Assembly (NCBI RefSeq): GCF_016859285.1
Contig: NC_053414.1
Span: 1,288,517-1,352,516 of the forward strand
Reading direction: 5' to 3'
From: Xiphias gladius
Taxonomy: Eukaryota; Chordata; Actinopteri; Istiophoriformes; Xiphiidae
DNA: 64,000 nucleotides
Both the position numbers and the translations under genes were made by a program. Positions 6,535 to 62,371 of the stretch are shown here, piece after piece. Within the stretch, counting starts at the first letter, position 1. Every line of letters begins with the position of its first letter. The notes beneath the pieces are model-generated. The model was not told the DNA's origin and searched no databases. It worked only from the letters and a program-made list of their open reading frames with translations.

Positions 6535-7708
6535 ATGGAGGGTAAAGACGAGCGGTTGGATCCTGTCCGGAGTTTCACCGTTAAAAGTTTGAGGCTGGAT
6601 GAGGCAAGATGGCAGGAGTTTGTGTCGGAGGAGGGGAACCAGGTGAACTTCAACAGTTTCTTTAACGCTCAAGATTACTGTCACCTGTTCATCTGTCAGG
6701 ACCCGGACTCCAGACTCTCTGTCAGCCTCGACTTCCCCCAGAACATCCAAAGTAAAGTAATCTGTGTCTCTAAAACGGCCCGTGAAGCCGTGACTAAGGA
6801 AAACTCCAGGAAAATTTTAATCTTTCAAGAAGTTCAGGGAGAAGAGGTCCTGAACTTCATCATCTGTGTCACTGAACAGGTACGGTAAGGCTAAATGTAA
6901 CTTAGCTTAGGCTAATAAAAAGTAGGGCTGAATGTAACTGTTACCTTAGCATTTTATAAGATTAAGCTAATATTAAAGCTAACAATGAGCTGTAGCTAAA
7001 TTAAGCTTAGGGTAAATTTAAGGCTAATTGTAACCTGTGGGTAATTTAAGATAGGACTAAATTAATGCCACTGTTAAGCTAAGGCAAATTGTAAGATATG
7101 GCTAACTTGATGTTGAGCTAAGGTAATTATAAAATACAAAATTTTTAATCAAATGGTAATGGAGACAAATTAGGTCTAATGAGGCAAAAGTTAAACCAAA
7201 AGATGATGTTAAGACTAGGTAAACTAAGATCAAAGCAAAGAATAACAAACATTAAGGCCAGCTAGGCTAAGGCTAAAGTAGGTAAGCTAAGCAAAAAGTA
7301 AGTCCTAACGATCGCAGGCAAGTATGATAGGGCTATTTTAGTTAAGCCAAAGCTAACTGTAATATTAGCAGAAGATAAGACAGGGCTAAAGCTAACAGTA
7401 ACATTAAGGCGAGGTATGCTTAGGCTAATTTAGATACGTTTGTTAGTGTAAAAGAGCGCCCCCTGCGGGACATTAATGCTGTAACGCCTGAAGGTATGTA
7501 GTGTCTCGCCTCAGGTGACCTGCCCGTTGCTTAGCAACCCGGAGAACAGCAGCAGGTGGGTGTCGGGTGTGATCGACGAGGCCTTTAGGCTCATGGAGCG
7601 ACAGAAGAACGAAGCGCTGGTGATGAAGGCTCAGATAGAGGGACGCACCTTCCTGCCTCATCCCGACGCTCTCCATGACGATGCTCTGTACGACGCCGCC
7701 AAAGGAGG
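6535..7708 (+). CDS. Dynein tail gene, exons 1-2 (N-terminal region)
   Basis: Exon 1 starts at an ATG preceded by purine-rich sequence (GAGAGATGGAGG) and encodes 115 codons in phase 0. The donor is CAG|GTACGG at 6880; a GTAAGG four bases further would shift the frame. Exon 2 begins at 7515 and has the 'PLLSN...W...' signature followed by '[10 protein letters not shown]', which corresponds to the 'PLLSN...G.TLLPLP' segment of DNAH9/11/17-type chains. It ends in phase 2 at 7708. Intron 1 (6880-7514) is a drifted repeat of GCTAA/TTAGG-type words. Confidence 0.8.
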
Positions 7709-10700
7709 GTAGGCAGGTCCACCTTTTGTCTTCTAGGCCGAGCTGTCTGTGACAAGCAGCCTCCTGTTGTAGCTGCAAATTAGACTTCTTTGACAAGAAG
7801 CAGAACGTACGAAGAAACAGAAAACACAGAAATCGCTCAAAAACAGCATTCAGCAGGGTAACACTGAGGAAATGCGTAGGAACTAGAAATAACAATAGTT
7901 AAAAAAAAAAAAAGATACAAGGTTTGAAAGGAAAATCAAAATAAAAATAGCTAGGCATATAAAAGTACTTTAGAAGAGGATTAAGTTGATAATCCAGGAT
8001 ATCTTAGCATTTTATAGCCTCTTTGTTTTTAGAATTTTGAATGTAAAGATTTACAGTGAAGTGTGGTGTGAAATTATTCAGCGAGCAGTGGAATAAGATA
8101 TCAGCATCCATCCAGCCATTAACTTTACCTGTTTATCCTTCAGTCCAGTGGTCTTCACTGGCTGGACTCAGTCAACAGGAGACACTTTTACCATCAAACA
8201 CCAAAACGGTTTTGGGTGTGTGGTATGGAAATGCCACTAAATTGCTTTGGTTGAGACCAGAGAGGGCTCAATTGCATCTTAAAACACAAAAAGGGTTTAA
8301 GATTTCCTCTGAAGGACTCTCCATTACTCTAGAAATGCCCTCTGTGTAACAACTGGAACACCACAGGAGAGAAGACTCGAATGCACGACTCAGAAGAGCA
8401 CTAGGTTAAAAAATCCCTGTCTGTTACTGTTTCAACAGAGTTCAGTACACAGCCTGCAGTCAGAAGATTAGGCAAAGGCAGGGTCAGGTAACCGGTCATA
8501 AATCAAAAACAAGGAACCCTGCACGCTTGACTCATGGTGCAAAGATGAACTGGCGCTGAGCGAAGGGAACACACAGATTTAATACACTAGTGAGGGGAAG
8601 ACAAAGAGACGCAGGTGGAACTAATCAGGGCAGGGTAGACAATCACAAAGGCAGGAAACACACAAGGGCAGGTTGAAACGAGAGGAGAGGAGAGGTGAGT
8701 ATCACAAAAATAAAACAGGAAACCACGAATGAATGACACTAAGAAAACATAACCTAGTACTCAGAGCGGGGCATGACGCTCAGCTCGTCTCATATCCCTC
8801 TGATTTTCCTTCTGCCTGGTTTCTCTGCATCTGGTCTGTGACTCTGATTAGAAATCGAGACATTTTTATAGTTAGTGCTCTACATGTTAGTGAACATGAG
8901 ACCTGCTGTAGATGAACTAATAACGTTTAGCACAGGGGTGAGCAGGTTGGTGTAGTTCAGTCGTAACATTCAGAAAATGTGGTAAAAGCCCAAATGTACG
9001 TGAACGGGTCACATGCTTACACTGCAGTCTGCTGAATACAGTACACTGAATGTCATTTATGTCGATCGCCACAGATGATGCCACAGCAGCCCTCTGTTTA
9101 TTTACAGGTTTGTAGCCTGTACTGCCATCTTGTGTATGACGCTGAAGCGTTATGCAGTATTTTAGGTCATCTGGTGGTCTGGACCCAACTGTACCCACAG
9201 TAAGATTCAGGACTCCAGAGGGAGGTTTTGGTACTTTGGTCCCAAATGACCTGAGATCAGTCACTACAGTTTCCACATTTATTTATTCCTTTTTTTTCTT
9301 TTTTTTTTCTTTTGTGTGTGTGCATGTATGCTGATTTGGTATTTATTTTTAACTGTACTTCTGCATTAAACCTTGTTTAAAATGATTTTATAAAGTTGCT
9401 GTTATGATGTTCCCAGCTGACACTGGGCAGGAGGTGGGGTACACCTGGACAGTACTGACACACACACAACCATTCTCAATCACATTCATACCAACGGGCC
9501 TGATACCATCATCCTATACCGACACAGTTTCTCTGACAATCTGTCCTGAATTTCTGTTTGTCAACTGCTAATGAAAGGAAGCTGTCAGACATGAAGCTTT
9601 TCTGTTTTGGATAGAAACACAGAGTAAGTTGAACTACTGACGCTTCCTGCCCTCAGATTCCCACACCTGTCAATCCAGGTGTACTTTAATTCAGAGTCCG
9701 AGCGATAGGAGACGGGCAGGTAGTGCAGAGACAACAGTGGACTCTGCGGTAATGTACGCCCGGATTGAAAGATCTGATTGACGGGCTCGCAGTTGCTCTC
9801 CTCTTCTAACAGGAAGGTATCAGACATGAAACTGCTCCACACCTGTGATTGGACGATCATAGAGTGGGCGGAGCTTGTGTCTGAGTTCCTGCAGCAGGAC
9901 TCGTCTCAGCCAGTTGTGGACGGACTGAAGCCGCTTCCTTCAGAGGAGTTCCACTTCTGGAAGAACCGACGACGGAACCTGCTCTTCATCCAACAGCAGG
10001 TGATGAAGTAGGTCAGAACCTAGGAGGGCTGGTGGTCAATAGCATTATGTCAAATCCAAATCCACCATCAAATCTGAATCCTCAAGACTCCCTTATTGGA
10101 TCTCAGTAAGTTTAACTTTGATCATTTGTCAGTAACTAAAGTTGTAAATAAAGATCCAGTTCAGATCTGTGATCAGCTGTTGTTGGACCAGAATACAGAA
10201 ATCCTACAGTTTTTAGTGGCGGCCACTGAATTAAATCGACATTAACATTAATGAAACCAAATTAGCTCCAACCTGAACGTGAGCTGAGCACATTAACCAG
10301 CAGACTAAAGTTTCACATTAATTAACATTAATCAGCTACAGCTGATATAATCTACCGCCGCTGAATTCATTTTAACCGGAGGAAGCAACAGCTGAGAAGC
10401 TGCTGACGTCACCTGACTGGTTTCTGAAAGAAAAATAAGCAGGAGAGAGTCCTGACAGTTGCACCAAACTTGTTTCACTCTGAGGATTTTAGTCCAGTTA
10501 GGACTGATTATCTTCTTGGGTCAATTTGATAAATACAGACCGCAAAGGAGTCTGCAGGAACACTGATAAAAGTATAGTCAAACGGTGACTGAGCATCAGC
10601 CCTTGAAAATGAAACCTTGTCTTGTTGATTGATTGTTTATTTTGTGGTGGTGTTGTCTGTTCAGTTGATGAGCAGCAGAGCTCAGCTGGTGGCGTTTATT

Positions 10701-13700
10701 GTTGAGAGGGCAGAAAGTGTCTACTGGTCCACGCTGAGAGACATGTACAGAGACGTCCAGGAAGGTAGACATCACTTCTGTATGAACCTGTTAAATAACA
10801 ACACTTGTTACCTGCAGCCTGAAACACAGCTGATGTCCTCTCTCAGGTGTGAAGGAGGCGGAGGATGTGACCCTGAACCTGTCTCCTCTGCAGAAGAAGC
10901 TGGAGGAGGTGGAGCAGATGGAGTACCAGCAGGTACCTGCACACTCACAAACAGGTCACTGCTGCTGCAACAAAACAACAGACTTGTCTTTATATCTCTT
11001 CTTCGACTTTCTGTGAGTCTCTGCGCAGGTTTACACACACACCATTTCATCTACAACTGCATCCGTTAGTCAGTTAGTAAACATTAAATTCATCTGCGCT
11101 ATTATGATAATTGATGAATCGTTTGATTAATCACTCTTCAAGCAAAAGTTCCAAAAATTTGATGGTTCCAGCTTCTCAAACGTGAACAGCTGTTTTTCTC
11201 TGTTTTCTATCACAGTAAACTCAGTCTCTTGTGTTTTAAACTGCTGGTCGGACACAACATTTGAAGATGTCAGCTTGGACTGTGGGATATTGTTTTCTGA
11301 TGTTTAATACACCAAACAATTAATCAATCAATCAAGAAAATAGTCAGCAGATAAATTGTAATGAACATAATCTTTAGTTTCAGCCCTATTTACATTAAGA
11401 AGAGGAAATAAGATAATTGTCTTTCCTAAAAGCTGCTGTAAACCAGCAGTACACCTGATCCCCTTCATAGACCTGGACTGAGTCTGAACCAGCCCCTTAT
11501 TCACTTGTTGACTCATTCACTCCTCCCTCCCTCCCCCTGATTGGCAGCTGGGGGAAAACATGGCGTCTGTGCTGGAGGAGGTGCTTCTGGTGTGGATCAG
11601 GTCTGAGTTCTACTGTAAACCCTGCAGGATGGTGGTCCTGCTGCAGGAGATCTGCAACCTCCTCATACACCTGGTACCAACAAACTGAGTGAATGTGTGT
11701 GTGTGTTCTGTCTTTTATCATCAAACCCTCCAAATTTCTTCTTCTGTTGTTGCAGAGCAGGAAGTTCCTGCGAGGGGAGGAAGTGATGCATGGTCTGGTG
11801 TCAGACCCTGGTCTGGTCCTGGATGATGTCAGACTGGTGATCTGGACTCTGCAAACTTTCAAAGAGACGTACAGTCAGATCAGGGCTCAGCTGGAGGACC
11901 AGAGCCAGGTACAGCTGCAGACCACATGATTTGTGTTATGGGTTTCACTTTGTGCGTACTGCTGCTGAGGCTCATGGGTACTGTAGTACTGCTTTCACAT
12001 CCGACCTGGCTCAGTTAAATCAAACTCTACTGTGGAACAAACAACCCGACTGAGATCAAGTGAAAAGGAGGGTCTCAGTTTGGTTCCAGTCAGAGGGATT
12101 TTCTGATGGTAGCTCTGCGATTTCAACATGAATTAAGAAGATAAACAACTCATCAATCAGCTGATCTGTGAACTGTTCAGGAGGAGCTTTATAATCCGTC
12201 TGTGTAGTGACGAATGTGTTTCCACTATATTTGCCTTTGGCAGAGTGACTCAGTGATCCCTGTTTATCTCCGCACAGACGACTCTTTCTCCTCCTGTTTC
12301 TACCTGTTCATCACTATTCAACATGCAGCTGATTTACAGTCGAATAACACTGATCGTCAGTGAGAAAGGAAATAAACACTTTAGAAACATTAAAGTGCAG
12401 AATGACCTGCTGTCAGCCACCTAAGCTTAACTGATGATGTCGGAAGACTTCACCAAAACTGTCCAATCAGTGAGCTACCTGTCAGTCCGTATCGCTTCCT
12501 GTTTATTTCTCTAACGCGTGCGAACGTGAACCAGATCAGAACTAAAAGAAAACACTGGATCAGGATCAGTTACTCTAAGAGAACTCAGAGTGACTTCACA
12601 GAGCAGACAGAGAGAAAAAGGTGAAACTGACTTTACTGTGACAGAAAACAGCACCAGTGGCAGCAGAAGCACCAGTCACATCTGTTTGTAATTGAATGAA
12701 CATGACAGACCGGCTGTAAATACTTTCAGTAAAATCCATAAGGTACAGTGAGCCTGACGTCCTCTCCAGGTTCAGGCTGATACAGGAGCAATAATGGTAG
12801 CTGTGCTTCGGTTTTCCTGAATGAGTCAAGATGCACTGGGAACAGAAAATAAGAAAAAATAGACAAAGTTACAAGACTTTTATTAATGATGTAGATGAAA
12901 CACATGTCTAATAATCAGTATTTTGTACATAAACCGTCCAGTCAATGATTGGCTGAGGAAAGACCCGTGGTTCCTCTGAGACACAGACTGACAGTTTGAC
13001 TGCTGCATGTTTGTCTCTGCTGCAGGACCGAGTCTCCCAGAGCTGGGACTTTCCCTCACACCTGGTCTTCATCCACCTGGACAACTTCCTACACCGTCTG
13101 CAGGGCATCCAAGTACTCACATACAACATACATACACAATATGGAGACCTTCAATATGTATCGCTGAAAAGTGTACGGAGAATTGAGTTGAACTATATGC
13201 AGTAAATGTCGTGGGTTTGTCTTTTGTGTATCTCTGTTAGTAAAAGTAAAAATGTCCATAAAATATATTAACCTAGAAAGTAGAAGATGAGACACACGAA
13301 GTGTAAAGTACCAGATGAGTACAGTGGTTTTGTAGTCGCAGGTTGTGTCATTAGGTGGTGTGTGTCCGTTTAATGTGATGGAGTTACAGGTGTGAGTGCT
13401 GCCCGTCAGTAAGGGCCACAGATGGAATAACCAGTTTACTGGTGTGAGTTAAATGTTTAAAGATTCTCTGAGCTGGTGAAGTTGGCACACAGTGTTATTT
13501 GACCAGGCCTATCTGTCTCACCTGAGCAGGTGTTTTCAGCAGCTAGAATAACAATAATGAAAAAAACAGCACGCGATCATGTAGCTGAGGCATAATCATT
13601 ATCTTAAAGAAAATAAGTAGAACTGAAGTCTGTCGCAACCGATTTTATATTTGTGTGACACCAGCTATTCAAAGCTGCAGCCTTTTTTGTTGATAAAGGA

Positions 13701-16700
13701 AAAATTGGGTTTTTGACGTTGTTTTAAAACGTAATCTTCTCAGCTCGTTCAGCCTCATCACGTTTATGTCCAACAGTGGACGTTCTGCATCGTCATGTGC
13801 TATATTTAATATTCTTAACTTGGCTGACCATTTCTTAAAACAGCAACTATACAAAGTCAGAGCATCATCATTTTAAGTGAAAGCATTGAATTGTCGTCAT
13901 AATATGATTTCTGTGTATTAATTGGTTGATTTAGTAATTGATCGCTAGTCTGAAGTTTCACTTAATCAGCTGGACAAACAGCAGCTGCATACAGGACACT
14001 GCTGCTTCACTTATTGTTCTGGTTGACGTTAGCAGCAGAGGTATCGTCGGTGTTAGTTTCATCCTGTTTGTTGCTTTTCAGTTCAGATCTCAGCGAACAC
14101 TCGGATGGAACTTTTTGAGATTAAAGTTGAGTTTTATGAAATGAAAATGTCTTCTCCTCTCTCCTCCTGCAGGAGGTATTCTGTGTCAGTCTGCAGCTGT
14201 ATCAGCTGGATCAAGTGGTTCTGTCCGGTGTCAATGGCAGGATGTGGACAGATGTGGCTAAGAACATGTATCGGGACTTCCTGCGTCATGTAACGGTCCT
14301 GTCTCACTGTAACTGTGACCCCACCGACTCCGACGACCAGGTGACAGTCCGCTGATCTGTGTGAGGTACTCGATGTTTGACTGAGCTGTGTATGACTCCG
14401 CTTCCTCCTCGTCTTCCTCTCAGAGCTTTGAACTGTACCTGGATCAGTTCCAGGTTCAGGTGTCAGACCTGGAGAGACGTCTGGTGTCGGTGCTAAGCAG
14501 AGCCTTGGAGAACTGCAGCGTCTCTTCCTCTGCAGCAAAGGTACGAGTCCGTACCTCTGACAAAGTACAGCAGCCGCGGGAAATGAGCTCTGAGTCTGAT
14601 CCAGTATGCGTTTCAGCTGGTCAACATGTTCGGGTTCATCCTGGACCGGCGTCTGATCCAGGATCAACTGCGACCTTACCTGATCCGGCTGGTGGATATG
14701 GTCCTGATGGAGCTGGATCACACTAAGCTGCTGTTCTACAGTCAGAGAGAGAAATCGAAAACATTCAGCAGGTTCACTCCGACTGCTGCAGCTGGCCTCT
14801 GCTGGACTCAGCAGCTCCGACTGAGAGCCGAAGACTCTCTGACGAACTACAGGACTGTTCAACACCTGTAAGATCAAAGATCACTGCGGACATACACTAA
14901 ACACTCAGCGGGTTTTCAGTGTGTGTCTTGACTTTTTGATTTGACTTGACACTTGTCGATCTCTGTTGTGTTCAGGTGTGTGGACTCAGGTCAGCTAGTT
15001 CTGCAGAGGTTCCAGCAGATTGTGGACCCCCTGCAGGACTTCAGAGACAGACTGAAGTCAGAATGGAGCTCTCAGCTGGACTCGGACTGTGGATTTGTAC
15101 TGGAACAACCCCTGATCCAGTTCAACCAGCAAGGCATGCTGGGAGTCAACAGCAGCCACAAGGTCAGTGTGTGTTTGTATTTCTTACTGTAACAGTGTGT
15201 GTTGTATCTTTACTGTAACAATTTAAAAAAATAAAATAACTAGAAATATATATGTAAAAACAAAACCATAGATCACTATACTTCTTTATGGTTTAACCTC
15301 AGTATTACCACATAAGTTGACATTAGGGAAGTCAACAAAGAGGAGAAAACCGCTGAACGTTGTGATGTAGCTTTTTCTCTTCTTTCATTTAAAACTGAGG
15401 CCCGTTTACTCCAGAATATCAGGGGAGAATGTGAGGAGAAGAAACATCAGATTTTTTTCAGTCAGGCGTGGTGGATTCTTGCAAATGCCACTAGGAGCAC
15501 TAGGAGGAGCCAGAGGAACCTGATGATTTCACAGATTACCTTAGTCTCATGTACTACTGTCAAGACATTTGTGACAGTTTCAGCAAATATGGCAAAGTTA
15601 CCTAGTGAACCTTTAAGGTTTGGGTTAGGGACTAGGGAATGCATAATGTCAATGAATGTTCTCACCATTAATGTAAGACAAGTGTGTGTGGGTGTTACCA
15701 GCTGGAGGCGGTGCTGAGGGAGCTCAGGTATGTGATCAGGGAGAGAGACATGGAGCTCCGCCCCCACGCTGCTCAACTCTGCACCTGCAGAGATGACGTC
15801 ACGCAGAACTACCTCAGCCTGAGTCACATGGTGGCTTGCTACAACCAGGTACACAAACACGCACATTGTTTTGGTTCTGAAACTGACAGGTGGATCCAGG
15901 TGAAGGTGAGTTTATCTATACAGCACCTTTCTACAGCACAACACAAATACAAAAGAAACCTAAGACAATATAAGAATACACATAAATAGTATTTCAAAAT
16001 AACATAAATGGTAAAAATGAGGTTAAATAGAATAAAAACAGATTAAACAGGAGAATAAACACTGCAGCTGTTCCAAATTGAATTGAATCAAAGGCAGCAG
16101 CAAACAGACTGATTTAAAAGAACTCAGAGCTGGAGCAGAGCTCAAAGTGAAGGTCATCTGACAGACTGTGGTCCTCCGTCAGGTGGTGAGTGACGTCCTG
16201 CAGGTCGAGCTTCCTCTGATCAAGGACCAGCTGCAGGACCTGAACCGGACTCTGTCAGAACTGCAGGGGAACACCTGGGGCTCTGAAGGTGACACATCGC
16301 ATGACACATCACGGAGAGCAGAGTACAGTAGCTAAGCTTTAATGTCCCCGAGGGGCAGTCCATTACAGTAAATACAGAATAGAACAGGTGGTTCCCATCA
16401 TGCACTGCGGCACCTGGCTCCAAAAACTGCTGCCGCCTCGATCATTGCTAATGTAGATCTGACCGGCTGCACTGTGTGGTTATCGCTGGTGACCGATTCT
16501 GTGCAGGTCTGGATCATCTCAAACCAGCCTGTTACATCACCTGACGTCACCTGACGTGATACCTGACCGACAACTGCTGTGAGAGGACGGGGACTGATGA
16601 GTCCAATTTCAGAGCCGGAGTCATAACATACAAAGTCAATCAGATTCTCCCGGGGCAGTTTTCTCCGCTCTCTGAACACTCCTAGACGGGTGTGTGTGTC

Positions 16701-19700
16701 TCTGTGTGTGTTTATAGGTGTGTCTCTTTCTGTGTGTGAATGTTCAGGTTTGCAGCAGCTGGTGAAGCAGCAGACAGACAAAGTGTTGATGTTTCATTCC
16801 TCAGTCACTGAGGCCAGGGCCAACACGGACGCCATGACACACATCATCCAGGTCAGTCAGCTGACCTCTGACCTCTGATCAGTGTGTTTAATAGAAGAGG
16901 TTTTTCCTCATCAGTGTTGTTGTGAGACATCATCATCATCTGAATGAGCTGAAGTCAGTGACGGGGAAACGAAGGTGTGTGAATCTAAGACGGGGACAGG
17001 GAAAGTGTCTGTGGAAACAAAGAGGGGATTTGGAACCCGACACACTGTGACTCTGGAAATTATTTGACTAATCCAGAGTGATGAAGCTTCACATTGACTT
17101 CAGATAAACTCACACAGAATAAGAAAATATTGTGCAAAGACCTGTTAATGTCCAGAATGAACAGGAGGAAAATCCAGTTCACATGTTTATGTTTAAGACA
17201 GACTGTCCTTTAAATCTGAGCGCGTCGGTCTTTACTGCCTTTGTTCGTTTTCTCAGTAAAACCTTTGTTAGAACACCTGACCACTGTTGTTAGACGGGTC
17301 AGAGACAGACAGAGACACGTCCTGTATTTAGATCCACTGTGACTCCTCTGATACGAGTGTGATGTTTGAAACAGAAGATAAAGTTTGGTCTCACAGTGAA
17401 ATCTAACATGCAGTAGACCGTGGTGTGCATCAGTGTGTTAATGTTCTTGCGCAGGGCTGGGCGGAGCTTCACCTGCTGCAGCGCTCAGCTGAGTCACTGC
17501 TGGATGGTGGAGCCACAGAACAGAGCTACAAGCGCATCAGAGAGGAGGGACAGGAGCTGCTGAGGTTAACACAGGTAACACCTGAGGATGAGGAGGTGGG
17601 AGGAGGAGGAGAATGGGTGTTTATGTGACTATGCTGTGTCCTCAGGTGAACAGGAGTCTGTACAGAGCTACTGACTGCTCTGAGTCCTGGTTCAGGTATC
17701 TGGACAACATTGATGACAAAGTCCAAGATGGACTGTTCCAGCTGCTGCTCAGATCACTACACTTCCTGTCTGACAACATGAACCCACAGGTACACACACC
17801 TGCTGAGTGTCAGCCCTGATGGTGTCATCATGTCCTGTTAAGGTACAGTCACATGACTCTTCTGTCCTATACGTGTGTTTACCTCACAGTCGGCCAATAG
17901 AAACCCTAATACGGTGTTTGCAGATGTGGGGGTCGTTATTCTGACAGGGTGTCGCCATCGTACAGTAACAGACTGCAGCATCACTGTCACACACTGTTTA
18001 CAATAGAGCACTGAAACTCTGCTCGACCTCTAAATGAGGGGCCCCCTGAGTGCCTGGGGGCCAACACATAAGACACACGTTTCTGGTGAGGACAGAGACT
18101 CCGAGGCAGAGAAACTCGCAGGAGACCAGGTAAGGTTCAAAAAAGAAGTGTCTTTACTGAAGAGCCACAGGGTCCTACACAGGAAGTCAGTCTGATAAAG
18201 GCAAACAGTAGTAGCCAGGGAATACGCAAAAACCAAGACACAAGGCAATGTATCAAATAAGGCAAACGTGAGGAGAATGCTGGAAAGCAATGCACACTGT
18301 AGGAGTAACAAAGACAATCTGGCAAAGGACAAGCCAAAGAGGAGAAGCATATAATGGGGTGAGCTCTCAGAACGTCAACCAGACAGACAAACACAAAATG
18401 ATTCATCATGTAGCGAAGAACATCGTTGATTAAGGCCTAGAAGGCAGCTGGAGCATTAGTTATAACCCAAATGGCATTACCAGGTACTCGTAGTGGCCAC
18501 TGGGGGTTTTGAAGGCCGTTGTCCACTCATCCCCTCCGTGACGTGAGCAGGCTGATAGGCATTCCTGAGATCAAGTTTAGTAAAAAAAAATTAGTGGCAC
18601 CTTGTAAAAGTTCAAAAGCTGTAGAGATGAGTGGGAGGGGGCACATGTTCTTGATGTTGACATCATTGAGACCCCGGTAGTCGATTCACGGCCAAAGTGT
18701 CTTGTCTGTCTTGTCTATAAAGAAGAGTCCGGCGTCAGTGGGAGACAAGGAAGGGAATTCTGGAAGTATTGATTCATAGCCTCCCTCTCCGGGGCTGACA
18801 GGGAGTAGAGGCGGGCTTTTAGGAGTGGAAGCCCCGGGAAGGAGGTCAATGGTGCAGTTGTATGGCCGATGAGGAGGTAGGGATGTTGCATGGGCCTTGT
18901 TGAAAAATTCTTTCAGGTCCAGGTAGACGGAGGGAATGCCACAAAGGACAGGAAACTCTGGGGAAGATCACAGACTTGGGGAGAACGTTGGGAGAGGCAG
19001 ACAGGAGACATGATGAGTTGCAAATGCAACATGAAAAGCAATGGTTTCAGAATGGTTGCCGACACGTGGAGGTCTAGGGGTGGACTCTGGTGCAGCCCCC
19101 GACACAGGAGATGGTTATCTGAGGTGTTGGCAAATGGGGGACAAGGGTGTGGCTCCAATTCGAGCTGGAGTTGGTGAGCTCATCCCCTGTCCATGAAATT
19201 TTCATCTGTCCCGGAATCCATAAAAACAGCCAACTTCAGAGATGCAACAGGAGAGACCAGGTGAGCATGAGTCAGAGGTTGAGAGGGTTGGGGAGAAGAA
19301 GAGGAGCAGCTCACCAGTAACCCTCCCTTTACTGATCAGCCTGGCCTTTTACTGGGCGCCCCGCCAGGAAATGTCCAAGTTGACCACAGTAGATGCACCT
19401 TCCCTCCTAAAGTCAGCTTTCGAGCTCCTCGGGGGTAGGGTGAGTGTGGCCCACCGGCATTGGCTCCTCCCTGCCACCAGAGAGCTGTCACCTCATCTTT
19501 GGGACTCACCATGGCAACGGGAGGTCGAATGTCTGCTAGCAGGGAAGTGGACTGCCCCCAGTGGAAGGGAGGTCTCCTTTCAGGTCGGCTCTTCCTTCCT
19601 TCTCTCAAACAGGCAGTTATCAATCTTAATGGCTAAGGTGACCAGAGGGTCAAAGTCGGTGAGTAAGTCTAAGGTCTAAGGGTGTAAGATGGCCTTTGAT

Positions 19701-22380
19701 GTGATCGGATAAACTGTGCAGGAAAGTGTCGGACAAAGAGTGTGTGTTGTAGTCACCGTCAGCAGCCAGGGACCGGAAACAAACTGCATGGTTGGCCACC
19801 CGGCTGCTGCCTTGCCCAAAAGCCAGTAGCCTCCATGCTGCCTCGGCCTGGAGTACAGAGTCTAAACCCCTTTCTCAAGGCCTCTAAAAGCCTCCACAGA
19901 AAGGGAGATGGCAGATTGTCTGTCCCACTGAGCGGTGGGTCTGTGATCATGAAGGCCACACGAGAGCTTTCGGTGGAATAAGGGCAGGAACTGGAACGAC
20001 AAGAGAGAGAAGTTTTTCAAAATAAAATGGGAAATAAGACTCGAACATTAAACGGGATATAACACGTGGGGCTCTGTCATAGGGTTAAATGTAACATTAA
20101 GAGCGAATTTCTCTGATTTACTCTGAGACAAGAAATTTCAAAAAGGGAGAAAAAAGATTTGCAGACCAGATGTGACAGAAACTTTGTGCTTTTTGCTGCG
20201 TTATTGGAAGAAAGTTGAGAAATTTGACACAAGTCATTCAAACATTAAACTGTGTGTTAGATTGCAGAGTGAATTTATTGAGTTTCTTTTTTGTTTGTTT
20301 GTTTGTATGTTTTTTACACACCAACACCAAATGACCTGAATCAGCTGTTCATACTAAACAGCAGATCCCAGATCAGGTTAGTAGTGCACCATTAAAGCGT
20401 GTGTGTGTGTGTGTGTGTGCGCAGAGCTGCAGTGCTGCGTTGTTGGCAGTCTCTCTGCAGCTGAAGGAAACAGGAAGTGTGTTTGAGCCGTCGGTGGGCA
20501 GCGGCCTCTCTGACCTCCTGACGACCATCATCAGTGATGTTTACACAGCAGCCAGTCTGCCGCCCAGGATCTCTGTGCGTCGTCAAGGCAACTACCAGGT
20601 GACTCTGACATCATTCTCGCATCACTCATTGAATCCCGTACAGGCTGCTGTTACAGGCTTCAAGGAACCAAACTGGACGTGTCTACCTGTCTCTCAGATG
20701 TCTCTGCAGCAGAGTCCGGAGCTCTTGGCGTTGGAACAGGCAGTGATGCAGCGTCTGCTGCGGGTGAGGGAGGAGGCGGAGCATCTGAGGGCTGGGTTGG
20801 ACAAGTACTCTCACCTGTGGCAAAGTGACAGACGGGGGGTGATGCAGGAGTTCTTGACCTACAGCAGACCGCTGGGACCTGAGGAGCTGGAGGCTGAAGA
20901 GACCCCGCCCACCCTGAAGGACTTCCAGAGAGAGGTGAGACACACCTGGCCAGGTGTTTCCCAGGTAAAAATCTTAGTTTCATATTAAATATTTATTGCT
21001 CAGGAGTTAGTGGTCATTATTGTATCCACCCGTGTGGTGCAGTGTGGGTGGAGCCTCTCGTCTCTGCTGTTGACAGATGTTGATCAGGTTTGTCAGGTCA
21101 CACCTGTGTGTCATAACTTGACCTCACCTGATGGCTGCAGGACAGAAGCATCTTCGCAGGTTTAGAGTGACCCTGCTGTTGGTTCAGGTCCGTAGGGCGC
21201 TGTCTGCTCCCCCTGCTGCTTGTTAGTGTCTGTTTTGTGTTTCCGTTTCAGATCGAGTCACTCCACAGACTGAGCGGAGAGGTGACTCACCTGGAAGAGG
21301 TCAAGGTGCTGCACGGCTGGCTGCAGGTTGACCTGCGACCCTTCAGAGACTCGATGCTGTCAATCATCCACGACTGGAAAAACATGTACACAGAGCACCT
21401 GCTGGACTCAGTCAGTGACAGGTAAACTCACACCTGAGACCTGCTGGACTCAGTCAGCGACAGGTAAACTCGCACCTGAGACCTGCTGGACTCAGTCAGC
21501 GACAGGTAAACTCACACCTCAGACCTGCTGGACTCAGTCAGCAACAGGTAAACTCACACCTGTATATGTCTGTTTCTCTGTGTGTGTGTTTTCAGTCTGC
21601 AGCAGGTGACTCAGTGTGGTGGTGGTGGTGATGATGAAGAGTCTTCATCTTCCTCAAGTTTCCCTCCGACAGAAACCATCATCCTGCTGGAAACTGCAGG
21701 TGTCAAGCTGCCTGAACACCTGTCAGCACAGCTACAGGTGCGACCTCACTCTGACCTCAGTGCCGTGGTCATGTCATGTGTGATGGCCGTAGTGATGAAA
21801 CAGTCTCATGTTTTGCACCTTTTGTAAAATGTCATGAACCTTGAGTCAACGAGCACAGAAGTTTATTTTCAGTCAGACTGTAACAGGTGGCAGCTGCTAC
21901 TTTACCTGTTTTGAGTCCTGACATTCCTGTAAACTGTGATGTAATTGGTGAAACTGAGCACCTGCTGCAGACTCCAGGACTCCAGGACTCAGATGTACGG
22001 TATAAACCATGTGTACAAACCCAGCACATGCCATTTCACTCATAACAGTAGTTAGATGCAATGGCTGAAATGAAAACCACACCTTCTGAGTTGGCAAAAA
22101 AACCCCAATTTTTTTTAAAAAGCTCCTGGCTTCAGCCTCAGCCCAGTTACAGGTCTACAGGACATCACTGCTCCCTGATGTTGACCTGTTCTGTCCTGGT
22201 GACAGAGCTGAATGCTAGACTCAGTGAGGTGGACCCATGCTGACCCATTCACACCATCAATAAACAGGTTTTTCCTGGATCTGTGCTTCGGTCCGACAGT
22301 TGGATTAATGTGGATCATGTGGTTAAAGACCCTGGATCTATAATCTCCCTCTGAACTGTTTCCTTATGTTTCAGTGTTGA
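6535..22380 (+). CDS. Dynein axonemal heavy chain tail (DNAH9/11/17-like), motorless
   Basis: Twenty-one exons join with consistent GT-AG sites and phases into 1,115 uninterrupted codons: 6535-6879, 7515-7708, 9813-9999, 10665-10764, 10847-10932, 11548-11673, 11756-11908, 13026-13112, 14173-14340, 14424-14540, 14617-14867, 14976-15162, 15702-15848, 16183-16288, 16748-16851, 17455-17574, 17646-17789, 20425-20598, 20698-20934, 21252-21421 and 21596-21737. The N-terminal block (residues 1-180) and the DHC_N1 stem region follow the outer-arm beta/gamma heavy chain pattern: 'FWKNRR', '[16 protein letters not shown]', '[10 protein letters not shown]...ELDHTKLLF' and '[14 protein letters not shown]'. 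The family's tail dimerises and binds intermediate chains on axonemal microtubules. After '[21 protein letters not shown]' a family member would continue into the linker and AAA+ ring. Here a small exon at 22375 gives Cys-stop, or intron read-through gives 29 more residues. No motor exon follows. Full-length relatives are roughly 4,400-4,500 aa. Confidence 0.85.
7526..7538. promoter_or_regulatory. X-box-like RFX palindrome inside exon 2
   Basis: The 13-bp sequence GTTGCTTAGCAAC is a near-perfect inverted repeat that fits the RFX X-box consensus used by many ciliary genes. It lies in coding sequence about 1 kb after the start codon, so coincidence is possible. Confidence 0.3.
8440..8790. repeat. 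Interspersed-repeat-like segment in intron 2
   Basis: A purine-rich stretch with phrases such as 'gggcagggtagacaatcacaaaggcaggaaacaca' ends near 'cggggcatgac'. It has the look of the untranslated/LTR-type repeats common in fish genomes. The family is not assignable by eye. Confidence 0.35.
9813..15162 (+). CDS. Dynein tail gene, exons 3-12 (DHC_N1 core)
   Basis: These ten exons encode residues about 180-667. Family landmarks appear in order: '[13 protein letters not shown]' (exon 3), '[15 protein letters not shown]' (exon 4), '[17 protein letters not shown]' (exon 5), '[26 protein letters not shown]' (exon 6), 'MYRDFLRHV' (exon 9), the 'VSDLERRL' exon (10), '[10 protein letters not shown]', 'ELDHTKLLF' and '[15 protein letters not shown]' (exon 11), and '[17 protein letters not shown]' (exon 12). 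All splice phases agree (0/2/0/1/0/0/0/0/0/0/2/0), with no stop or frameshift, so the tail has been maintained by selection until recently or still is. Confidence 0.85.
15702..21737 (+). CDS. Dynein tail gene, exons 13-21 (end of stem)
   Basis: Residues about 668-1115 continue the stem: '[11 protein letters not shown]' (exon 13), '[27 protein letters not shown]' (exon 17), '[21 protein letters not shown]' (exon 18) and '[18 protein letters not shown]' (exon 19). Exon 21 carries a low-complexity [10 protein letters not shown]6 insertion before '[20 protein letters not shown]', the segment that in complete heavy chains leads into the linker. Exon 18 is preceded by a (GT)n tract in place of a normal polypyrimidine tract. 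Exon 20 ends inside a 42-bp tandem repeat that copies its splice donor. Confidence 0.8.
18040..20000 (-). mobile_element. Degraded Ty3/Gypsy retrotransposon in dynein intron 17
   Basis: Minus-strand translation near 19345-19390 gives a gag zinc knuckle ([15 protein letters not shown]) in which the last Cys of CCHC is Arg. Nearer 18430-18740 it gives reverse-transcriptase phrases of the Ty3/Gypsy class ('[19 protein letters not shown]', 'FELLQGAT', 'TKLDLRNAY') broken by frameshifts. Gag-then-RT order on the minus strand shows an antisense insertion. LTR boundaries were not delimited; 18040-18350 may be LTR or untranslated sequence. The element is an old, inactive endogenous retrotransposon. 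Confidence 0.7.
20399..20420. repeat. (GT)n directly before exon 18
   Basis: The run TGTGTG...GCGCAG ends at the acceptor of dynein exon 18 and takes the place of the polypyrimidine tract. Confidence 0.85.
21399..21566 (+). repeat. 42-bp tandem repeat copying a splice donor (4 copies)
   Basis: Four head-to-tail units start at 21399, 21441, 21483 and 21525. Each contains the last 23 bases of exon 20 plus the first 19 bases of the intron, including CAG|GTAAAC. Only the first donor preserves the reading frame, because use of a later one would place TAA directly after the first junction. Confidence 0.9.
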
Positions 22381-23750
22381 TGAATGAAGATGAAACTGTC
22401 ACCTGAGAGAGAAGAGGCTGAAGATGTCACCTGGAAAATAACATTCGTCAGTCTCAGTGGTTTAAAGTGTTCAGATTATACAGAGAGAAAACGTGTTCTG
22501 TTCAAATGTGGTGATTAAACGTTTATTAGTGAGCTCTGATGTGTGTAAATGCATTTGGTCCATAGCTGAACTCTAGTAGTCAAAGCAGCATTTTCACCAT
22601 TTACTCCCTAATTAAATCTCAATTGTATAAAATTTAAAAAAAAGTATAAGCAGTGCCGACAGTCCCTCTGAAGCTCTTTAACTTCTTCTTTAAACTGTTA
22701 ATTCATATTTATAAACTAAGTAACATAATCTGAACTTTAATTTACAGAAAATGACGGCTGTAAAATTATTTACCTTCCTGGTCTGATTTGATTCGTGTCA
22801 AAGAAAAGTCACATTACCGATACGCCACTTGAACCCCTAACGTCACAGTTAGAGCTGACAGGAGATCAGTACATCCGTCTTCACTGCTGGTCTACAACAA
22901 GGCGCTCAGACTGCTTTTACTTCGAGTCCGGGTTATTAGGGTCAGACTAACCCGATCTGATCCAGTCCTGTAATAAATCCTCCTTCATGCAGGTTCTAGT
23001 GTTCTATGTGTGCTGATTCACCTGGATCGGGGTGGACAAAATAATAGAAACACCTGTCAGTATAACACAATAAATGAAGAAAAGCACCTGCTTCCGTTTA
23101 ACACCTCCAACAGTAATTGTCATCTGTAAGTCTGATTTTTTTGAAGTGTAACAGGTGTATAATAATACCTGTGTATAATTTAGTAAATACGTCCTCTTCC
23201 ATGTCTGAGTTAAGATCTTCCTCAGATGGTCGTCATTTCATAAAAAACCTGAGGCTGACTGTGCAGCTCCTCAAAACAGGACCTGCAAACTCTCCAAAGG
23301 AGCAGCTCCTGCTTTAATAAATTCCCTCTTCTTCATTCAGCCTAAATCCAGCAGTTCGAGGGGTTGTAAAATATCTGCCCTACAGGTCATTAACTTCATC
23401 AATATTCTACAACCTTTGGTTTATACTGAGAGATGTGGAACAGCGGACACGTTTCCATCCTACCACCGCCAGTAGATCTCCTGCCACAGTCCCTCATTAC
23501 TGGTGCCTCTGCTTCTGCTAGTATTACTGGTGGTGCTACCCTCACCTCAGCTCAGCTACTGGTACTACAGGTACCGTTACATTGCTCCTCACTGGTTGTT
23601 TTATTACTATAGATTTGTGATGCTGACAGACTAACAGACTTGACTAAAAATAGCTCTGAAAAAGGAAAAGCCATTTGAAAATAGTGGAAGTAAAATAACT
23701 TGAATCCGTTTACAGAGACAGAAAAGAACCACAAAAGGATAAATAAATGA
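22381..23750. other. Converging 3' flanks of dynein tail and tmub genes
   Basis: No exon is supported. Possible poly(A) signals for the dynein tail gene are AATAAA near 22257 (if the last intron is retained) and ATTAAA near 22512. For the tmub gene on the minus strand an ATTAAA lies at 23756-23751. Confidence 0.5.
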
Positions 23751-24124: not shown

Positions 24125-26392
24125 CTAGCGGCGGTAGACTCCGAAGGCCACCAGGCTGAGGAAGATAGTGACTCCGACCAGCGAGGCGGTGGCCGGGGCC
24201 GTGAAGAACTGCCGGTACTGGATCTGACAGTACCACAGCACCGACAGCATGAGGACCAGCAAGGGGACCATCAGGCTGCCCACATTCAGAGCCACCTGCA
24301 CCTGGTCTGTGGGCCGTGGCCCCCCCGCCGCACCCCGCCCGGCATGCTGAGAGATGTGACAGTGTAGGACGCAGTTATGGACCAGGTTCAGAGAAGCCAG
24401 AGTCTGAGCATCATCCTGCAGCAGCTGACCCTGATAGATCAACCGGACCTGCTGCTCCTGACCCGCAAAGTAGGTCCTGAAAGGTCAGAAGTCAACACAA
24501 CACAACATCGATCAGATCTGTCTTATTGACTGCACTTCACTGCCTGTGTACTGGTTTTCTGGTTTTTACTGAGTCTGTTCTCGCTGCGTTAACTGTGCGA
24601 TACGCCGAGGAGCCAGAACAGGTGAAGAGAACAACGCTGCTCACCCCCTGACAGCGGCGCATTCGAAGCTCGGGGACACGTCAGATGGCGGGTGAACAGG
24701 TTCTCGTAGTCAGCGTGTTGGATGTGGGAGAAATGAGCAAGTGTAAAGACCTGAGCCACTTTTACGAGGACGGGATCATTATGGTCAGATGACTGGGTCG
24801 GATCAAGGCTGGCGGGGTGTTCCCAATCGGTGGTCTGAGGAGGGACTAACCATGAGCTGGAGACAGGGTGTTGGGAGATGTGCTAGAACAAGTCTGATCC
24901 ACATTGGCACCGCCTCAGAACTTACAGGACATAAAGGATCTGCTGCTGACGCCTAGGTGCCAGATACCGCAGGGACCTCGGTGGTCCCGTGGATTGGGGC
25001 TGTTTGGGTGGGAGCATGTCAGGTAGGTAGTCATAATTGTTTGTTTCTTCTGTGTAGAGAACGGAGAGAACGACAAGAATTTCTACCTTGAACCTAGACG
25101 ACTCTAACGACTACACCAGAGTCTGAAATTAGTTCTAACCGGCCAAAGACTCTCAGTGACGCATTCAGGTTGAGGAGTAAAATGTCGTCAACTAACCTGT
25201 AAAATGACGGGTATTTATATTAGCACCAGTTAGGAGGGAGGAGAGATGTTCTGAAAAGCCTGATGACATTAAGTTTATTTAAAAAAAATTGTTTGAACAA
25301 AACCAGAATAGTTTTAGAGACTGTGTGATGCAGAGGAGAACATTTCACACACCTCTGCAGCTCTGATCATGTATGTGCCTCATACTGCAGGACCAGGATC
25401 CTCAGTGAGAACAGACCCTTACCTTAATGACAACAGGGAACATTTCACATGTGGCTAATTATTATTGTTAATTATCTTAGGACAGCCCTTTGACTTTACA
25501 GAAATGTGTGTTACTTTCTCGGCATGTGGGGAACATCCAGTAAAGGTTTGTGGGTGAAGCATCATCCTCACAGTGTGTGTGTGCGTGCGTGTGTGTGCGT
25601 GTGCTGACGATGCTGCGTGACTACAGGCTGTGAAACCACGTGACTGGACGGGGCTGAGTCCCATTATTTAATCTACATAGAGGCTGAATTCATTGCTCGA
25701 GCCACGCGAGGGACCCGTCAGCGTTTACTCACAGTCTAAATGTTGTACCTGTATATATCAATGTGACTGAATGAATGTTGTCATCGCAGTTTGTGTGTGT
25801 AACCTTGGTGCGATACATGTGTTATTTGCCCATAAAACCTTTACCAGTGCTCAGTAAAACTACGACAGACTGTCTCTTTGTAGTACTGCAGCAGTGTGTA
25901 GCAGTGTTGTTACCGTTTGATGTATCCGATGGTGTCCTGTGGTTTGACCTGAGCTGTTCTCTCTGTGTCATTGAGAAACTTCAGTCTGACCACCATGTTC
26001 CTCTGAGACGGCGACGAAGACTCTCCTCCTCCTCCTCCCCCTCTGTTCCTCGCCCCATCTCCTCCAGCCTCGCCCCCCCTTCCCCGCTCCTCCTCCTTAT
26101 CCTCCTGGGCGGAGGCAGTGGGAGCTTCTGTCAGAGAGCTGTCACTCACAGAGCTGGAGGGTGAGGGAGAGGAGGATGAAGAGGACGCGTTTGTGTTGCT
26201 GGAGGTGGGGGGGGTGTCCTGGTGGGCGGGGCCGGTCCTCAGTGAAGGGGCGGGTCCTGCGGTGGATGTGAACAGATGTTCTGGGGGCTCAGAGGTGCGG
26301 GTGGAGATCCAGGCGAGCAGCAGCACCGCGAGGAGCAGCAGAGACCCGAACAGCAGCGTCACCTCGTCCCCTACGCCTTCGATCAGAGCCAT
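24125..26392 (-). CDS. tmub1: Transmembrane and ubiquitin-like domain protein (TMUB1/2)
   Basis: Two coding exons on the minus strand, 26392-25914 and 24476-24125, join in phase 2 into 276 aa plus stop. The ATG at 26392 begins MALIEGVGDEVT, matching the vertebrate TMUB1 N-terminus; an in-frame TTG upstream is not needed. In order there is an N-terminal membrane segment (about 10-28), a Ser/Gly/Glu-rich linker (about 32-131), a ubiquitin-like domain (about 132-200, with 'VRLKFLNDTE', 'DTIGYIKR' and 'VRLIYQGQLL'), and two C-terminal membrane segments (about 218-238 and 250-270). TMUB proteins act in ER membranes and associate with ER-associated degradation machinery. The N-terminus and 'LHCHIS' favour TMUB1, while 'LNVGSLMVP' and 'QFFTAPATASLVGVT' resemble TMUB2, so the paralogue call is provisional. 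Human TMUB1 and TMUB2 are 246 and 321 aa. Confidence 0.85.
25569..25604. repeat. GT/GC-rich microsatellite in tmub intron
   Basis: An imperfect (GT)n run with CG interruptions within the single coding intron (24477-25913). The rest of that intron holds no recognisable exon. Confidence 0.7.
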
Positions 26393-26937
26393 CGCCCCCG
26401 GCAACGCCCGCTGAGGTCAACACAGGTCACACACCTGCACAAAGAGGGCAGGGCTTAGCGTCAGCACCTGACACAAGATTATTTACCTTCTTCAGACAAA
26501 TAAAGAAGAAAGAATGACGTAGGGGAGGTACATACCCCGTCTTTTACTTGTTTGTAACATTTTGTTAAACATGAGATAAACAACAATGGAGCTGGATCAC
26601 CGTGTCTCCCGCCTCCGTGGTCAATCCTCAACCAGCCTGTATCAGTCAGGTGTTCATCATCAGACCTTCAGGTACAGTCTGAAAACAGTGTGCAGCGTTT
26701 TGCTACGGTTTCTGGGTTGAACATCACGTTTCCTCCAGACAGTGTAAACGGCGCGAAACAGGCCATGAGGTGCGTTTTCAATGGTTTAGTGAGTGTGTCA
26801 CGTGTTACAATCAGCAGTGATGTATATAAACCTCGCTGCATATAAAGGCCAGTGTGCATGCGTTTTACAACAGGGTGTTCAACACACCACCGTTTCTGTT
26901 TAAATAAACGTTTTGTCGGAGCTGAACCTGCTGCAGG
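26393..26937 (-). other. Upstream region of the tmub coding sequence
   Basis: On the minus strand a TGACCTCAG acceptor lies just upstream of the start codon, so the first tmub exon is probably non-coding and lies further right. No other exon was recognised in this interval. Confidence 0.4.
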
Positions 26938-27409
26938 AGTCTGTTGGTCCGTCTCTCGACACCTTCCCTCCTCTGTCTTTGGTTCTCAGCTTCAAGCCCA
27001 TCGGTTCCTACTGAAGACGTAAATATTTAAAAACACCTCACAAATGTATAGTTTCATTTAAAAACTCTCAGTCATTTTCCTAAAACAGCTGCTCACTGTA
27101 GTTTTTAATCAAACAAACAGGAGGAAACTGTGACTCTGTTGGGGACTATTTTCAGCGGCGGATTGATCCACGCTCGGTGCTCTAGTGAGCGTTTGTGGCA
27201 GAAGGATGGCGTGTGTGGGACTGAGTCTAAACAAACGACAGTGTGCGTGTTCGTGGTGATGAAGGAACACGTCACCCAGTGCGACAGTTTCTGGAAACGG
27301 TGGAGCTCTGTGGCTCCGAGGAACCAGAGACATCGCAGCTCCTGTTAGTGGGAGACGTTCAGATCTGGTTTGAGTCTGAACATGATGATGAGACGAGAAA
27401 TACAGAAAA
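26938..27409. repeat. Inverted 472-bp duplication, left copy
   Basis: This block matches the reverse complement of 63032-63503 over its full length without gaps. I found one mismatch in the parts compared by eye, and both copies carry the same 74-aa open frame. It lies between tmub and asap1. The edges show no obvious terminal repeats or target-site duplication. Confidence 0.9.
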
Positions 27410-31471: not shown

Positions 31472-52965
<21,494 letters not shown>

Positions 52966-56899: not shown

Positions 56900-59530
56900 A
56901 ACAAAAGGATTTCACAAAATGTTTGATTGTTCTCTAAGTTCGACGTGTGTTGTATTGAACTGGAAACACACTGTATTCACCAAAGAAAAAGACTTAGTCT
57001 CTACATCTAAGTAGGATATTGTAATTATGTTTGTTCTTTCTCCTTATTATAAAATCATTTGGTAATTATCCGATTTTTTCATTTTTATAACATAGCTTTC
57101 CTGTAATCGTGAGGTAGTTATCATGTAATTATAATTGGCTGAACAGCATGAGGTATCTTATAATTAAGACATTGCTGAGATACAAGATACAAATCTTATA
57201 ATAATGAGATAGATGCTGTTGTTCTGAGATTCAAATTTTGTAATGATTAAACTGTTTTCTCTTAATGATCGCAAAGTTGTCCGATAATCTATTCATCAGG
57301 AGTTAGATTAACCAATTTCCTCGCAGTTTTGAGTTACAGCTCTTGTAATTCTGTGATGTCTCCATTGTTTTTTCTTTGGTAATTGCAGTGTGTTTATGTG
57401 GTATTGTATTGAATATATTGATTCTGGGCTTTGGCCTCGTCAGGATGGATCCAGGTGGTTAAAAGTGCAATCTGAAGTTTAATGTGTATTTATTTAGAGT
57501 TTGTGTCCGAAGGAAAGACAGAATAAAACTTTTGACAGTTATTAAAACTGTTGTTAAAGCTGAAATATAATTTTCTATACATTGCAGGTCATTGTTTTTG
57601 TTTTTTATGTTTTATTGTGAAATATGACCTGATAGGAAAGGCGTCAGTTTGACCCTGACGTCTGTTTCTGCTTCGTGCTTTGCTAACGCGACTGAGCCGA
57701 GTCTGACCAGGGCCTTAGCTGGGACTGAACCGGGACTGAGCCGGATCAGCGCAGGCCACAACCAGGAGGAAACTACCATCACCACCATCAACAATAAACA
57801 TCTGCGGATGAACTCACAGTTTGTGTTGTTTTCTGTCTGTCATTTTTCAGAGTTCGGAAAACAAAAAGTGAAAAGAAAAGCGGATATTGTATACAGACTA
57901 ATCACATTGTGTCTAATCTATTTCTATGTAATCACTGATTATTTGTTTTCATCAAAATTCTGCAGATGCAATTAAAAACCTGTGCGTGGACAGTTGCAAC
58001 TCAGTGGATATATTTAACAGCCAAATCAGTCATTTTCAAACCATAAAAATGACAGATCACAAGAAGCTACACATCAGAAATTCATCAGTGGTTTTGTCAA
58101 ATGGTCCTATTTGAAAACATCAGCATGTTTTCCAGTTCCTATACATTCAACAGCACTGGAAAATATTATTAACTAAGATTTAGATTTATGACAACTGACC
58201 AGACTGCAGCTGCTGATGAAGGCCATGAGATATGGTTGAAAGATCTGCAAAACTTCCAGTGAATGAGCCTTGTGCAAAGATTTTTTTCCTCTATTTCCAA
58301 GGTGATTAATGAGACCTACTTGTTGATTTTGTATTAAGGGATCCATCAGTCCGTTTAGGACCCAACATGTGGAGCCCCCCACCCCAAAAGAAGACTAGAA
58401 ATTAAAAGTTTGTTTGTATCTGCATTTTGAGATTTACATTATTAGGATTATAAATAAACTATGACTGTTTTCTGAATAATTTGACAAACTATTTCTTGCA
58501 TCAAAAACAATATTAGAGCTCAGTTTCAGCAACGTGTTCACCGACATTGTTTATGTAAGGAAACATCCAGCACTATCAGAAAATACTGAGTTATTATTTA
58601 ATGCGTCTCCTGCATTAAGTCCAGTCCGTCAGCCTGAGAGCGAGAGCAGCTTCTAGGTCGCCTTATTTGTAAATGTATGGATTCTGATGTTTTATTCTGC
58701 TTCCTATATGTCGCAGCAGATCGGGTTACCACTTGTTAGAAACAAATGTACTTTAATTCTCAAAATTAAACGTGAACCGGTACTACAGGGATCCCCTCTC
58801 AGTGTAGTACCAGTTAGATGGTTTTATGACGCTGCATAATGTTGTAAAGCCTCATAGTGAAACATCACACATTAATTAAATATGTTAATTCAAAAAGGCT
58901 AAAATCTGCTCAGATTTCAAATTGTTTATATTTTCTAAAATACTTATAAAGACTTGATTAGTGATGATCCTCAAAACCACGACATCTTGGTTCGGTTTTT
59001 CACAGACGTGACGATAAATGTCTTGAAAGAGGAAGGGGCCTGGGGTTTTTTGTGCCTCACCACTGAGGTTTCTGAATTAGGTTTTCACTCCATCGCCTCG
59101 TTCACACTGCACCGCTGGAGCTTATCTGCCTTGTTCCCAGTGTTAAACACACATTTGACTCAAGCAGCAGAGACGTGGTTTTGTTCAGAGTTGGTTAAGG
59201 TGACGGTCTCTCGCTGCGTGTTGTCGGTTCGTTCAGGTGAGACTCACCTGTGAAACCTCTGAACACAGGACGACCAGCAACGGCGGAAGTCCACAGCTGT
59301 GTGATGTGAAAAGTAAACAACTGATTCAAATTAAAAAAAACTTAAGGTAAGAAAAAAGATTATTTAAAAAGGACTTAAAATTGAAATAACATTACAACAT
59401 GAAACTGAATCCATTCATCGATCCTTTTTAATGAGGTTACTAAGGTATTTGTAATGGAATTTTAAAGGGATGATTAATGATTGACCATTAATTACTGGTT
59501 TGTAACATATTAAACTATTTTTGATGAATC
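56900..59530. other. Gene-free stretch, AT-rich
   Basis: No exon is supported. An AATAAA with downstream T-rich sequence at about 57523 could serve as a distal poly(A) signal for asap1. Confidence 0.5.
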
Positions 59531-59531
59531 T

Positions 59532-59855
59532 CTTCATCCGTCCCAGTCCACGAGTGTTTCCGTTCATTTGTCCTGGTAAAGCTGTTCAATATCTGAGTGG
59601 TGAATAAGAGTCAATTAAAACCTGATTAATTAGCAGCTGAGAATATTTCAGAGCCCTGACGTGAACCAGAATCCCTTCACCTCAATAAAACCTTCAACTC
59701 ATCATTCATGGATTTGTCAAACATTTCACATTCATGTGGAAACTAAGGGAAAGTCACGACGCCCTTAAAATCTACTACATCGTCTGATTAAGGCCTTTTC
59801 ACATTAAGGGCTTTTTAAGGGCTTCGGTTTTTCAAAGTAAAGGACAAACGAAGGA
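59532..59855 (+). repeat. Dispersed repeat R1, copy 2 (full)
   Basis: About 325 bp matching 62372-62697 inverted, and for its first 200 bp matching 33031-33232. The ends carry short imperfect inverted repeats around 'TTCATTTGTCCT', which suggests a MITE-like origin. Confidence 0.85.
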
Positions 59856-60244
59856 ACTCTGTGATTTTTCTTCACCTATCAACGCTGAGTTCATTAACAA
59901 TCATTTCATAGCTAAAATGACAGACTCTCCCTTTAATAGTTCAACATCCGGAGCAGCAGGTGGCGGTAAACAGGCGGACAGTCAAACACACGCACGCACT
60001 GAGGGCCCCGGGGTCCTGACGTGGTTTCTGATTTATTCGTTTTGGGACTAAGTTCATAAAGTCACAAAAAATAAAGTCCCTGTAGATTTTGTAGAAAATG
60101 CATTTTATTTATAAAACTGCACAAGAAATAAAACCGGTGGAGCTGAGCCCCCCAGCCCCTCTCCGCCCTCCACACACCTGTGGAGATGTTCCCCTGAGGG
60201 CAGGTGTATCGATCGGTTTGTTGTATTGATTGATCAGGGCTTAC

Positions 60245-62370: not shown

Positions 62371-62371
62371 A

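Follow-up and report, generated by a model that had tools for sequence, protein, structure and literature searches.

A tail-only dynein gene in the swordfish genome

The 64 kb of DNA from the swordfish Xiphias gladius analysed here (the window, in whose positions all coordinates are given) carries on its plus strand a gene for an axonemal dynein heavy chain that consists of the tail alone. Twenty-one exons (6535-21737) and a terminal exon made up of a single cysteine codon and a stop (22375-22380) encode 1,116 residues. Each exon from 1 to 21 is followed by a GT donor and each from 2 to 22 preceded by an AG acceptor, the phases match, and 1,115 codons run across exons 1-21 without an internal stop; no disrupted frame or splice site that would mark a pseudogene was found in the model of 22 coding exons. 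An earlier note on this DNA had proposed the 21 exons with their 1,115 codons, matching phases and clean frame, together with the Cys-stop, and our check of splice sites and frames bears out all of these, the last as a 22nd coding exon. The same exon supplies the ending of the X. gladius models in the databases, P0001 and P0002, which are identical to our translation over 1,074/1,074 and 1,023/1,023 aligned residues, final Cys included, and have the same motorless end. These models, labelled 'dynein heavy chain 9, axonemal', differ from the translation only by missing stretches that fit a skipped exon 6 or skipped exons 6-7. The features of the gene are as follows.

6535..6879 (+): exon 1, start codon and first part of the N-terminal dimerisation domain
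7515..7708 (+): exon 2, remainder of the dimerisation domain
9813..9999 (+): exon 3, start of DHC_N1 at residue 191, among the parts most similar to full-length DNAH17
10665..10764 (+): exon 4
10847..10932 (+): exon 5
11548..11673 (+): exon 6, 126 nt, in frame, missing from isoforms P0001 and P0002
11756..11908 (+): exon 7, missing together with exon 6 from P0002
13026..13112 (+): exon 8
14173..14340 (+): exon 9
14424..14540 (+): exon 10
14617..14867 (+): exon 11
14976..15162 (+): exon 12
15702..15848 (+): exon 13
16183..16288 (+): exon 14
16748..16851 (+): exon 15, where the DHC_N1 match stops at residue 754
17455..17574 (+): exon 16
17646..17789 (+): exon 17
20425..20598 (+): exon 18
20698..20934 (+): exon 19
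21252..21421 (+): exon 20
21397..21562 (+): 42-bp unit repeated 4.0 times (95% matches), duplicating the end of exon 20 including its donor
21596..21737 (+): exon 21, with the shortened acidic/serine stretch followed by a conserved end that matches DNAH17 to residue 1167 of P0073
22375..22380 (+): terminal coding exon (22), single Cys codon, then stop
22514..22519 (+): ATTAAA, candidate poly(A) signal by inference, 134 nt 3' of the stop

The 42-bp repeat at 21397-21562 creates consecutive donor-like sites, the first of which fits the X. gladius models. Intron 17 holds broken minus-strand frames (18530-18967) resembling a Ty3/gypsy reverse transcriptase, which may account for the length of the intron.

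The only Pfam domain in the protein is DHC_N1 (residues 191-754, E = 3.9e-110), as expected from the earlier description of the gene as a tail-only heavy chain; the DHC_N2 linker, the AAA+ ring, the stalk and the microtubule-binding domain are all absent by Pfam, and the gene is therefore not classed as a dynein motor. Its best match among solved structures is DNAH17 of bovine sperm (9fqr_I4, E = 1.2e-176, residues 5-1071), followed by DNAH9 and then by beta chains from other outer arms. The N-terminal dimerisation domain and the helical bundles are retained in the predicted fold. The structure alignment took 40 of the 72 tail-only relatives described below; the structure-based alignment to solved chains covers chains of up to 3,000 residues and so includes no full-length outer-arm chain.

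The end of the protein and the sequence beyond it

In the full-length DNAH17 of a salmonid (P0073, Salvelinus) the corresponding sequence reads ...KETIQFLKDFGEELPDEVHAQLQ and continues DLPEHWNN..., and the final residue that it has in common with the swordfish tail is its residue 1167. The segment just ahead of this end has 55 residues in P0073 and 28 in swordfish, where it has become acidic and serine-rich. Pfam places the start of the DHC_N2 linker domain at residue 1267 of P0073. The exons had been said to end precisely at the linker; the match with DNAH17 up to residue 1167 stands, but the swordfish protein stops about 100 residues before DHC_N2.

When the post-tail parts of full-length DNAH17 (P0073 from residue 1150, P0074 of the opah Lampris from residue 930) were used as tblastn queries, neither strand of the 64 kb window yielded a recognisable relic of a motor (best E = 3.5). 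The convergent gene expected downstream is indeed present: a minus-strand piece at 24128-24484 encodes a ubiquitin-type domain (E = 1.3e-7), and the gene is presumably a tmub.

Motorless relatives in other fish

The search of the 1,115-residue product against other fish proteins that the earlier note had called for was carried out and yielded 72 motorless relatives. Of these, 71 came from a protein search limited to lengths of 0.55-1.75 times the query, in which the 7,989 candidates sharing most words were scored, and one more (P0072) from a profile built from 17 tail-only proteins and aimed at older fish, which gave 33 matches in all. The relatives are 599-1,325 residues long, each has DHC_N1 as its sole Pfam domain, and they bear 62 species names (one per 90% cluster; P0054 and P0065 have no usable name). 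As far as we recognise them, the named species are all percomorphs; a lineage look-up covered Xiphias and Hippocampus and placed Lampris outside the percomorphs. As the length filter shuts out full-length proteins, the tail-only set on its own says nothing about full-length versions in the same species.

The exon-21 motif lies near the end of 62 of 73 sequences (the relatives and the window), none of which, judged by eye, continues into linker-like sequence; it is missing there from 11 (P0030, P0032, P0037, P0046, P0051, P0062, P0066, P0068, P0069, P0071 and P0072). A stricter end pattern parsed 49 of the 72 C-termini, the other 23 being left out of the counts: 23 end in QC-stop, one (P0065) in HC and eight straight after Q, and the others in a few different residues. 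The 1,130 residues of P0065 are encoded on a contig of 3,834 bases, which points to a spliced transcript as its source, since a gene of about 20 introns is here fitted into so short a contig.

The same ending is found in seahorses (up to the motif), tunas, killifish relatives, sticklebacks and perches, fish so distant from one another that the truncation is not recent; the percomorph group is said to span more than 100 million years (PMC10516590). The earlier suggestion that the gene was recently truncated, with a tail that has not yet decayed, is thereby excluded, and a shortened protein shared by dozens of spiny-rayed fish species indicates that the motor was lost long ago, not in some recent mishap, and that its loss is probably of use. 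The same evidence bears on the idea of an annotation or assembly artefact, according to which the motor exons are located elsewhere and belong to a full transcript. The motor search extended over the 64 kb window only, which leaves some room for this idea. It is nevertheless scarcely credible: the end is the same in many species whose genomes were assembled separately, often on contigs tens of megabases long, while in the window a convergent gene follows at once and no motor relics were found.

Orthology with DNAH17

DNAH17 is an outer-arm beta heavy chain that is sperm-specific in mammals. A search admitting proteins of about 1,830-5,830 residues listed 52 long relatives of the swordfish protein, the best being Salvelinus P0073 (753 bits) and Lampris P0074 (593 bits over 78%). 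The alignment for phylogeny had 35 rows, including 14 of the 73 tail-only sequences, and was reduced to 32 rows for a quick tree and to 27 rows by 1,115 columns for a careful one by cutting near-duplicates and long branches. The tail-only proteins group with DNAH17 and not with DNAH9 or DNAH11, for which the only sequences included were from Denticeps. In the careful tree of the tail parts the DNAH9 group is supported at 100/100, as is the opposite side, the DNAH17 side, on which bird DNAH17, Salvelinus, Lampris and the tail-only clade (100/100) fall; in the quick tree Lampris stands with the salmonids at a support of 50. Forcing the tail-only rows to group with DNAH9 costs 79 log-likelihood units and is rejected by the approximately unbiased (AU) test (p-AU 2.65e-5). 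Holding them with Lampris gives a likelihood 15.45 better than that of the free quick tree (p-AU 0.859), which is what orthology of the tail-only gene with DNAH17 would lead one to expect. The alternatives in the AU test were chosen after the tree was seen, and several rows were flagged in both trees for unlike composition.

The clade is named DNAH17 because P0073 and the crane protein P0077, compared as whole proteins, both score higher against DNAH17 of bovine sperm than against human DNAH9. Two proteins named DNAH17, from gar (P0085) and frog (P0110), group with DNAH9 in the trees, and their database names look wrong.

A separate full-length percomorph DNAH17 is absent from the 52 long relatives, among which the percomorphs named are two gobies, both in the DNAH9 group; this silence is weak, since the same list also misses the mammalian DNAH17 that exists. 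As the tail trees place the clade inside DNAH17, it would be DNAH17 itself that lost its motor on the way to the percomorphs. The gene had been put forward as a possible paralogue; the trees and the rejected DNAH9 grouping make percomorph DNAH17 orthologue the better description. The docking, dimerising or dominant-negative role that the earlier note also suggested is conjectural. That it is this orthologue and that it is old, the two taken jointly, we hold with high confidence.

Constraint and evolutionary speed

Column conservation on proteins and a neutral simulation stand in here for the ratio of nonsynonymous to synonymous substitution rates (dN/dS). Of the 208 columns that are conserved among 15 full-length beta chains, the tail-only clade keeps 132, and every one of the 21 exons contributes at least one of these; at less conserved columns there are matches at 138 of 381. 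A further 154 columns are conserved in the tail-only clade alone and not in full-length chains. In the simulation, neutral change to 54% identity produced a mean of 16.8 stops per frame and left 0 of 200 frames intact. The clean frame thus looks constrained, in agreement with the earlier note, and the DNAH17 tail appears, on these sequence comparisons, to be fast-evolving but constrained.

These data also speak to two other explanations. One is a slowly dying gene, in which an accidental loss of the motor left behind a tail that lingers without function: the fast evolution of the tail, a species list that is possibly patchy and the lack of the usual end in 11 of 73 models would suit it, but at comparable divergence no neutral frame survives, conservation reaches the final residues of exon 21, and we regard it as very improbable. 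The other is a neofunctionalised scaffold with a place other than the outer arm, perhaps not even in cilia, its fold kept and new surfaces selected. It would agree with the long stem branch of the tail-only clade, with the 154 columns conserved only there and with the shortened acidic/serine stretch at the C-terminus, but it sits poorly with the ancestral conserved columns retained in every exon, and we think it unlikely.

Other features of the window

Farther on than the tmub-like gene lies an ArfGap-domain exon at 44383-44514 (plus strand, E 6.9e-16), presumably of an ASAP family member. An inverted pair of 476 bp, 99.6% identical, has one copy near the tmub-like gene (26934-27409) and the other near the right end (63032-63507), and is probably a recently moved element. 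A dispersed repeat occurs in three copies, at 33024-33229, 59529-59861 and, inverted, 62366-62703, with pairwise identities of 94.7-96.5%. Rfam gave no match within the window, and a reading of 63736-63909 as UBTF-like was backed neither by solved structures nor by Pfam.

Discussion

By combining the tail-only structure of the protein, its place in the tree, its shared ending, conservation along the whole tail, and a predicted dimerisation domain and helical bundles, we hypothesize that the gene is a percomorph DNAH17 orthologue acting as a motorless beta tail of the outer arm. DNAH17 would have gained an early terminal exon and lost its linker, AAA ring, stalk and microtubule-binding domain once the lineage had parted from that of the opah (Lampris) but before the sampled percomorphs radiated. 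The retained tail would most likely still pair with a gamma-type heavy chain (DNAH8 or DNAH5) and bind intermediate chains and the docking complex, as outer-arm anatomy and the Chlamydomonas mutant oda4-s7 lead us to infer. In sperm flagella the outer arms would then either be one-headed or include a regulated proportion that lacks the motor, and the force-generating beta duty would pass to DNAH9, which is reported to be the sole beta chain detectable in zebrafish testis. As a whole this is the explanation that we consider best and somewhat favour; for the outer-arm mechanism taken by itself, the chances seem about even. Bolder, and offered tentatively as something we rather doubt, is the proposal that percomorph sperm constitutively carry a headless outer-arm beta chain, DNAH17 having become a fixed structural or regulatory part of the arm before the radiation, with one-headed or mixed arms as the result.

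Several observations weigh against this hypothesis. The careful tree does not resolve how Salvelinus, Lampris and the tail-only clade branch from one another, and the stem of that clade measures 1.07 changes per column, as against 0.16 for Salvelinus and 0.37 for Lampris. Mean identity is 57% among 13 tail-only rows, compared with 58% among nine DNAH9 rows from across the vertebrates. Exons 1-2, which encode the dimerisation domain, are only 27-30% identical to full-length DNAH17 as against 34% overall, so that unchanged pairing is not favoured. No cichlid, medaka, pufferfish, flatfish or goby was recognised among the tail-only names (one name per 90% cluster), which suggests that retention may be patchy, through later losses or missed matches. 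Public gene models, moreover, are biased towards intact frames, so that the sequence evidence for constraint is indirect.

The same tail might instead serve as a competitive regulator, a natural dominant negative: by attaching to gamma chains, to intermediate chains or to assembly factors, the free tail would leave fewer two-headed arms. The binding parts predicted to be kept are the same, and isoforms without exon 6 or exons 6-7 could tune the binding; an inhibitor of sperm motors kept for so long would, however, need a special reason, and we see this alternative as rather unlikely.

If DNAH17 does act as a motorless beta tail, a tail-only gene maintained through much of percomorph history would be a natural experiment in which the structural role of a heavy chain is uncoupled from the generation of force. 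It predicts fewer heads per outer arm across a very large group of vertebrates, and it allows a direct test of how DNAH17 and DNAH9 share the work in sperm. The gene models themselves are already in databases, where labels such as 'DNAH9' or 'DNAH17-like' for fish proteins can mask the missing motor; the descent of the gene is ordinary and its form unusual. Among the papers listed in searches of the open-licence literature we recognised no description of a natural tail-only axonemal heavy chain gene, and to our knowledge motorless heavy chains are otherwise known only as laboratory mutants, recombinant fragments and isoforms.

Among known systems, full-length DNAH17 (salmonid P0073, Lampris P0074, bird, and bovine 9fqr_I4) resembles the swordfish gene in its orthologous tail, with dimerisation domain, DHC_N1 and helical bundles, aligned to residue 1167 of P0073. 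The swordfish protein differs in having no DHC_N2 linker, AAA domains, stalk, microtubule-binding domain or C-terminal domain, in its length of 1,116 residues instead of the 4,460 of P0073, and in the shortened segment ahead of its end. Headless myosin X is likewise a natural motorless form of a motor protein, but it is made by a full-length gene and belongs to an actin motor. DNAH12 is, like the swordfish gene, a naturally shortened axonemal heavy chain, and it keeps its AAA ring. It is described as being without a microtubule-binding domain (PMC11949491). Chlamydomonas oda4-s7 also has a motorless beta tail: its beta heavy chain is reported to be truncated with the N-terminus kept, and its arms still to assemble (PMC11496786, PMC12338079, PMC7817835). 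Unlike the swordfish gene, which is retained in a wild species, oda4-s7 is a laboratory mutant allele.

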